64,000 bases of DNA, from contig JAJDVI010000032.1 in NCBI GenBank assembly GCA_022826195.1, forward strand, positions 1 through 64,000, written 5' to 3'. Below the pieces are notes generated by a model that had not been told where the DNA came from, ran no database searches, and was given only the letters and a program-made list of their open reading frames with translations. Origin of the DNA: Acidobacteriota bacterium. GTDB taxonomy: Bacteria > Acidobacteriota > Vicinamibacteria > Marinacidobacterales > Marinacidobacteraceae. Of the stretch, positions 10,816 to 31,899 are shown in pieces (within the stretch, counting starts at the first letter, position 1; each line of letters opens with the position of its first letter). A program made the translations under genes and the position numbers.

Positions 10816-11352
10816 GTGCCCTCCCCGTTCCACTCCACGACCGTGCTGGCCGTCCGCCGCGGCGGGAGTACGACCCTGGCCGCCGACGGGCAGGTCACCC
10901 TGGGCGACATCGTGGTGAAGCACGGGGCGCGCAAGCTGCGCCGCATGAGCGACGGAGCGGTCCTCGCCGGTTTCGCCGGCGCCACCGCGGATGCCCAGGC
11001 GCTGTTCGCGAAGTTCGAGACCAAGCTCGAAGCCCACCGGGGGAACCTCGAACGCGCGTGCGTGGAGCTCGCCCAGGACTGGCGCACCGACCGGGTGCTC
11101 CGCCATCTGGATGCCCTGCTCCTCGTCGCCGACAAGGACCACGTCTTCCTGCTTTCGGGCGACGGCGACCTCATGCAGCCCGACGACGGCATCATGGCGA
11201 TCGGCGCGGGCGCGCCCTTCGCGATGGCGGCGGCGCGCGCTCTCGCGTCCCGCACCGAACTCACGGCCCGGGAGATCGCCGAGGAGGCGATGCGCGTCAC
11301 CGGCGGCATCTGCATCTACACCAACGGTCAGGTGATCTACGAAGAGGTGTGA
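10816..11352 (+). CDS. hslV: ATP-dependent protease proteolytic subunit HslV
   Basis: This is the peptidase of the HslVU (ClpYQ) two-component protease, a double-hexamer ring with an N-terminal threonine nucleophile. From the GTG at 10816 the product is 178 residues. It begins with a short propeptide (VPSPFHS) before TTVLAVRRGG, where the first Thr is the catalytic residue after processing. Family blocks are intact: AADGQVTLGDIV, VLAGFAGATADA, DWRTDRVLRHLDALLLVAD, and GGICIYTNG near the C-terminus. The frame is open further upstream, but nothing there matches HslV. hslU follows 24 bp later, so the two subunits are co-expressed. Confidence 0.95.
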   Translation: MPSPFHSTTVLAVRRGGSTTLAADGQVTLGDIVVKHGARKLRRMSDGAVLAGFAGATADAQALFAKFETKLEAHRGNLERACVELAQDWRTDRVLRHLDALLLVADKDHVFLLSGDGDLMQPDDGIMAIGAGAPFAMAAARALASRTELTAREIAEEAMRVTGGICIYTNGQVIYEEV

Positions 11353-31341: not shown

Positions 31342-31899
31342 ATGTCCTGGATTCACATGGTTCCGCCCACCGCTCCCGAGGGGCAGGCGGGGCGGCTCGG
31401 GAAGCTCTATCGGCGTCATCGCCGGCCCGACGGACTGGTGGACAACATCCTGAGGGTGTCCAGCCTGAATCCCGAGGCGCTGGAGCACCACCTGTCCCTG
31501 TATGAACACCTCATGCGGGGCGAGTCGGGCCTGAGCCTCGCCGAACGGGAACTGATCGCGGTCGCCGTTTCGGTGGTCAACGACTGCCACTATTGAATCG
31601 AGCATCACCGGAGAGGTCTTCTCCGGCTGACCCGGGATCCCGATCTGGTGGAACGCCTGCGGCGTGACCCGGAGGGCTGTCCGCTCTCGACCAGGCATCG
31701 CGCGCTCGCCGACTACGCCATCAAGCTGGCGCGGAACCCGGGGAGCCTGGCGGAAGAAGATCTCGAGCCGCTCCGCAGCGCCGGACTCTCCGACCGCGAC
31801 ATCCACGACGCGTGCGCGGTGGCCTCCTACTACTGTTTCGTGAACCGCATGGCGAACGGCCTGGGGGTGGAGCTGGAGGAGGCGGCAGCCGGCAGCTAG
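31342..31899 (+). CDS. AhpD-like/peroxidase-related selenoprotein (CxxU), TGA read as Sec
   Basis: One continuous frame of 186 codons is interrupted by a single TGA at 31594-31596 (codon 85). Both halves belong to the carboxymuconolactone decarboxylase/AhpD-like peroxidase-related family. The family redox motif is CxxC followed by two His; here it reads C82-H-Y-TGA-I-E-H88-H89, so the TGA sits exactly at the resolving Cys. The downstream half (RHRALADYAIKLARNPGSL and DACAVASYYCFVNRMANGLG) is well conserved, arguing against decay. A SECIS-like hairpin follows (31608-31626). The predicted product is a 185-residue thiol/selenol peroxidase or disulfide reductase. Its stop overlaps the convergent ABC-F gene by 4 bp. 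SelA-D genes are not in the window. Confidence 0.85.
31608..31626 (+). promoter_or_regulatory. Candidate bacterial SECIS hairpin
   Basis: CCGGAGA (31608-31614) pairs perfectly with TCTCCGG (31620-31626) around the loop GGTCT. The loop begins 18 nt after the TGA, inside the 16-37 nt window known for bacterial SECIS elements, and has G in the first loop positions. As I recall it, the E. coli fdhF SECIS also presents GGUCU in its apical loop at nearly the same distance. It would recruit SelB with Sec-tRNA while the sequence still encodes amino acids. Confidence 0.8.

Follow-up and report, generated by a model that had tools for sequence, protein, structure and literature searches.

An in-frame TGA in the redox motif of an acidobacterial AhpD-like gene is very probably read as selenocysteine

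An open reading frame that is cut by a stop codon within its active-site motif may be a broken gene, a misread one, or a gene in which the stop codon is decoded as selenocysteine (Sec). One such frame lies in a stretch of 64,000 nucleotides from an acidobacterial contig (JAJDVI010000032.1), hereafter the window. We therefore asked how the TGA at its codon 85 is read, and what the protein may do. The features of the locus are as follows.

31342..31899, + strand: putative AhpD-like/peroxidase-related (TIGR01926) selenoprotein gene of 185 codons, stop TAG, translated with TGA as Sec
31585..31593, + strand: codons for C82-H83-Y84, with which the CxxU redox motif begins
31594..31596, + strand: in-frame TGA at codon 85, taken as Sec, within the motif C82-H-Y-U85-I-E-H-H89
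31608..31626, + strand: bSECIS-type hairpin CCGGAGA-GGUCU-UCUCCGG with a 7-bp stem and the loop GGUCU; a lower stem may extend it (48-nt fold)

Translation of 31342-31899(+) yielded a protein with a single internal TGA (MSWIHMVPP...VVNDCHY-TGA-IEHHRRG...; LGVELEEAAAGS). An initial annotation, made from the sequence alone, had described one frame with these ends and a lone TGA at codon 85 within C-H-Y-TGA-I-E-H-H, and retranslation showed its coordinates to be correct. Open reading frame calling with table 11 divided the gene into two pieces of 84 aa (31342-31596) and 83 aa (31648-31899), the same split that had been foreseen for a standard caller. The locus is an example of a gene split at its active site by such programs.

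To assess conservation of the TGA, codon 85 was read codon by codon in 69 homologue rows from the phylum (two of the TGC rows represent the same genes, reached through overlapping loci). The position was occupied by TGA in 58 rows, by a Cys codon (TGC) in 8 and by a Ser codon (AGC) in 3, with neither TAA nor TAG in any of the 69. Homologues with Cys at residue 85, which the initial annotation had named as support for Sec, were thus found, and the other stop codons that it had named as counter-evidence were absent. Among 60 relatives searched, the same TGA was present in all seven other genomes of the genus (85-91% identical) and in both genomes of the same family, and in a sample of 396 genomes TGA-bearing homologues occurred in many families of the phylum. 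Across the TGA rows E70, C82 and H89 are invariant, gaps apart. Median dN/dS values within the genus were 0.09 upstream of the TGA and 0.18 downstream, indicating that both halves of the gene are under purifying selection. The 58 TGA genes, together with their Cys and Ser relatives, provide a set for tracing SECIS turnover and Sec/Cys exchange.

A pseudogene, or a sequencing or assembly error, would explain the TGA as a mutated or miscalled Cys codon; TGA is one base away from TGC and TGT, the window comes from a draft genome of 107 contigs, and the named relatives within the genus are metagenome bins (Acidobacteria, one labelled Vicinamibacteraceae), but this reading is refuted by the retention of the TGA across seven separately assembled genomes of the genus and 58 of 69 homologues, and purifying selection on both halves, the lack of other stops and the presence of the hairpin leave it a negligible probability. 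The initial annotation had likewise considered sequencing error unlikely, citing the hairpin.

Two further observations concern the relatives. The Ser codon at the Sec position occurs in three loci (L062, L063 and L041) that form one group in the tree (support 100/100), and these are possibly one-Cys variants like sestrin. Extra in-frame TGAs in some relatives, considered as second Sec sites, were rejected: every one that was read falls at the C-terminus (for L080, L084 and L039 at query positions 180-182) and represents an ordinary stop.

The genome from which the window derives contains tRNA-Sec (69.7 bits, anticodon UCA), SelA (493 bits), SelB (300 bits, or 321.8 including a C-terminal part in the same frame) and SelD (246 bits), all above the curated cut-offs. 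The genes selB, selC and selD, whose absence the initial annotation had regarded as contradicting a selenoprotein, are therefore present, as is selA. The 60 relatives were scored as Sec-positive when tRNA-Sec reached at least 59 bits or SelB exceeded its cut-off; the threshold of 59 was preferred to the family cut-off of 47 because weaker matches, at 47-53 bits, stand apart as a group of their own, taken to be tRNA-Ser or similar. tRNA-Sec and/or SelB were detected in 49 of the 60. A TGA homologue was present in 30 genomes, every one of them among these 49 and none among the other 11 (Fisher p = 3e-4, relatedness not corrected). A genome free of the machinery (G015) carries three copies of the gene, all with Cys at position 85, one of which, having Thr at position 82, adjoins a TGA gene in the tree (support 96/89). 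This looks like a swap of Sec and Cys, in whichever direction, that follows the presence or absence of the machinery.

The same Thr82 form (L065 and L040; G015:C125:5578-6009) reads TRYC: Cys82 is lost, and of the pair it retains just the residue that corresponds to Sec in other genes. Two genomes (G057 and G024) have a TGA homologue and tRNA-Sec with no SelB above the cut-off, and this gap may reflect a missing contig or a divergent SelB.

Could the codon instead be recoded as another amino acid, as in a code with TGA as Trp, or be merely leaky? In favour of this reading, TGA is the sole stop type seen at position 85. However, TGA also terminates homologues of the window gene (L080, L084 and L039) and, judged by eye, an apparent hslV at 11350 in the window; where position 85 does not hold TGA, the residue is Cys or Ser and in no case Trp; and the Sec gene set of the genome is complete. 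Recoding or leakiness is accordingly extremely improbable.

For a bacterial TGA to be read as Sec, as we favour here, the signal would be the hairpin downstream. Its loop corresponds to nucleotides 22-26 counted from the T of TGA and begins with two Gs. In E. coli fdhF, the SECIS has the identical hexamer AGGUCU at the identical place (nucleotides 21-26 from the UGA), while its stem sequence differs and the enzymes are unrelated. Taken alone, the hairpin in the window gene is not strong evidence, because the single-sequence fold of one 70-nt piece after the TGA is unremarkable (z = -0.32); compared with synonymous shuffles, the signal was modest (p = 0.03). An Rfam scan of the window found no RNA family.

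The hairpin was then considered across the TGA genes. Four hairpin registers fit 49 of 55 genes, leaving six outside, compared with ~15 on average and at most 23 in 500 synonymous-codon shuffles. The registers had been drawn up after 35 of the 55 rows were seen, and the 20 rows fetched later provide the fair test: 16 of these fit, against an expected 3.4 and a maximum of 10 in 1000 shuffles. The median free energy of the hairpin was -10.5 in TGA genes versus -3.7 in Cys/Ser homologues (p = 5e-5). Two-sided exchanges were observed at pairs 17-27 (G-C in 15 genes, C-G in 8), 19-29 (A-U in 10 genes, C-G in 5), 21-27 and 24-37. Codons 79-90 form the sole 12-codon stretch without any change within the genus, which fits both an active-site and a SECIS constraint. 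The earlier claim that a hairpin of the right type follows at the right distance therefore holds, since it is present at 31608-31626, recurs at the same place in relatives and exceeds synonymous shuffles.

In most relatives the register lies 2 nt away from the one used in the genus of the window. Whether the SECIS has moved within this one gene family of one phylum, occupying at least three registers (loop start ~20-21, 22 or 28 from the UGA) at the same TGA, is in our judgement evenly balanced. If true, the shift would represent a recoding signal turning over beneath a nearly fixed coding sequence, and the SelB of these bacteria would tolerate it.

To place the protein in a family, the read-through translation was scored against profiles with the Sec residue written as Cys. 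It matched TIGR01926 ("peroxidase-related enzyme") with 141.2 bits, above the curated cut-off of 81.8, and shows the motif of that family: C82 and U85, H89 four residues on, and E70 twelve residues before C82. Pfam CMD scored 60.7 bits and the sestrin match was weak. The closest solved chains (3c1l, 2pfx and 6k40) are AhpD-like peroxidase-related proteins with Cys at position 85 in the alignments. The profile for AhpD proper (TIGR00777) gave 19.4 bits, below its cut-off of 191.95. Two other groups also contain CxxU AhpD-like selenoproteins, but the window gene belongs to neither: the match to NF041238 (AhpD_rel_CFYUT) reached 45.2 bits over 180 residues, covering only half its length and far under the cut-off of 175, and that to the GSU3128 family (NF041047), a distant AhpD homologue, reached 14.7 bits (cut-off 110).

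Taken together, the frame, the conservation of the TGA, the Sec genes, the hairpin with its two-sided pair changes and the catalytic residues are each supported by sequence, and from them we infer that Sec is actually incorporated. The TGA of codon 85 is almost certainly read as Sec in an AhpD-like CxxU protein. The assignment in the initial annotation to a CxxU selenoprotein of the AhpD/peroxidase-related type is thereby backed by the TIGR01926 score, Cys homologues, Sec genes, TGA conservation and a SECIS-type hairpin.

Selenoproteins of this family have been described before. CxxU AhpD-like proteins of COG2128 were reported from the Sargasso Sea in 2005 (27 sequences; PMC1088965) and from GOS in 2008 (299 sequences, "AhpD-like 1"; PMC2398784), and a 2026 review lists TIGR01926 CxxU among selenoprotein families (PMC13188914). 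The window gene shares with these COG2128/TIGR01926 proteins the family, the CxxU motif, the Sec position and a downstream SECIS hairpin, and differs in that its host is an acidobacterium. No discussion of the family in Acidobacteriota was found in the selenoprotein literature searched. Because the family was already known, the window gene is a small surprise, a well-supported further case of a selenoprotein family recognised since 2005, and it adds such a protein to a phylum little covered in that literature.

We propose that the gene product would be an AhpD-like protein that works as a thiol/selenol peroxidase or as a redox adaptor. When the ribosome arrives at the UGA of codon 85, Sec-tRNA(UCA) would be supplied by SelB sitting on the hairpin, which starts 11 nt past the UGA, and after Sec insertion translation would run on as far as the TAG at 31897. 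E70, Y84 and H89 of the folded helix-turn-helix site would activate Sec85 for attack on either a hydroperoxide or a partner in oxidised form. Cys82 and Sec85 would then form a selenenylsulfide, which a cellular dithiol may reduce. The first-attacking residue, the substrate and the reductant are what we infer for this protein.

The proton relay of AhpD consists of Glu, Cys, His/Tyr, Cys and His (PMC3141380), and the corresponding residues of the window protein are E70, C82, Y84, U85 and H89. M. tuberculosis AhpD (TIGR00777) has the Glu, Cys, x, Cys, His relay residues in common with it; the window protein differs in that Sec replaces the second Cys and in belonging to another family. The identity of the nucleophile is disputed within the AhpD-like family. 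M. tuberculosis AhpD forms a mixed disulfide with AhpC through its exposed second Cys (Cys133), not the first, whereas the first Cys matters more in B. thailandensis AhpD (PMC6626918), and sestrin relies on the first alone (PMC4674687). The initial annotation had placed the TGA at the resolving-Cys position, a label that is doubtful and probably wrong: in the alignment, Sec85 falls on Cys133 of M. tuberculosis AhpD, the residue that bonds to AhpC. Sec at the second position would fit an exposed nucleophile at residue 85 that is partnered by Cys82.

A peroxidase role for the window protein is likely, judging from its sequence. A selenoprotein that is not a peroxidase, whether a sestrin-like/CMD-type enzyme or some other thiol oxidoreductase with the same fold, appears rather unlikely by comparison, as all five AhpD proton-relay residues (E, C, Y/H, C/U, H) are present. 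It would nevertheless be compatible with a family assignment that is general (Pfam CMD with a weak sestrin match), with the weak peroxidase activity of the AhpD-like protein PA0269 (PMC3141380) and with the lack of an evident peroxidase partner gene next door. The neighbouring genes (rnhA, PhzF-like, amidase-like and ABC-F, named by eye) are kept throughout the genus and to some extent across the family, and were not found beside the gene in more distant relatives (loci checked ~1.5 kb each side); they do not suggest a partner.

Codon-position GC was also used to scan the window for further Sec-encoding TGAs, and no second case was convincing. The highest-ranking candidate, the in-frame TGA at 11350 (+) between two long coding-like open stretches, was rejected because it reads as an ordinary hslV stop with hslU next in the same frame (by eye). 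At its 3' end, the putative selenoprotein gene shares its final CTAG (31896-31899) with the minus-strand ABC-F-like gene, such that the two stop codons overlap tail to tail.
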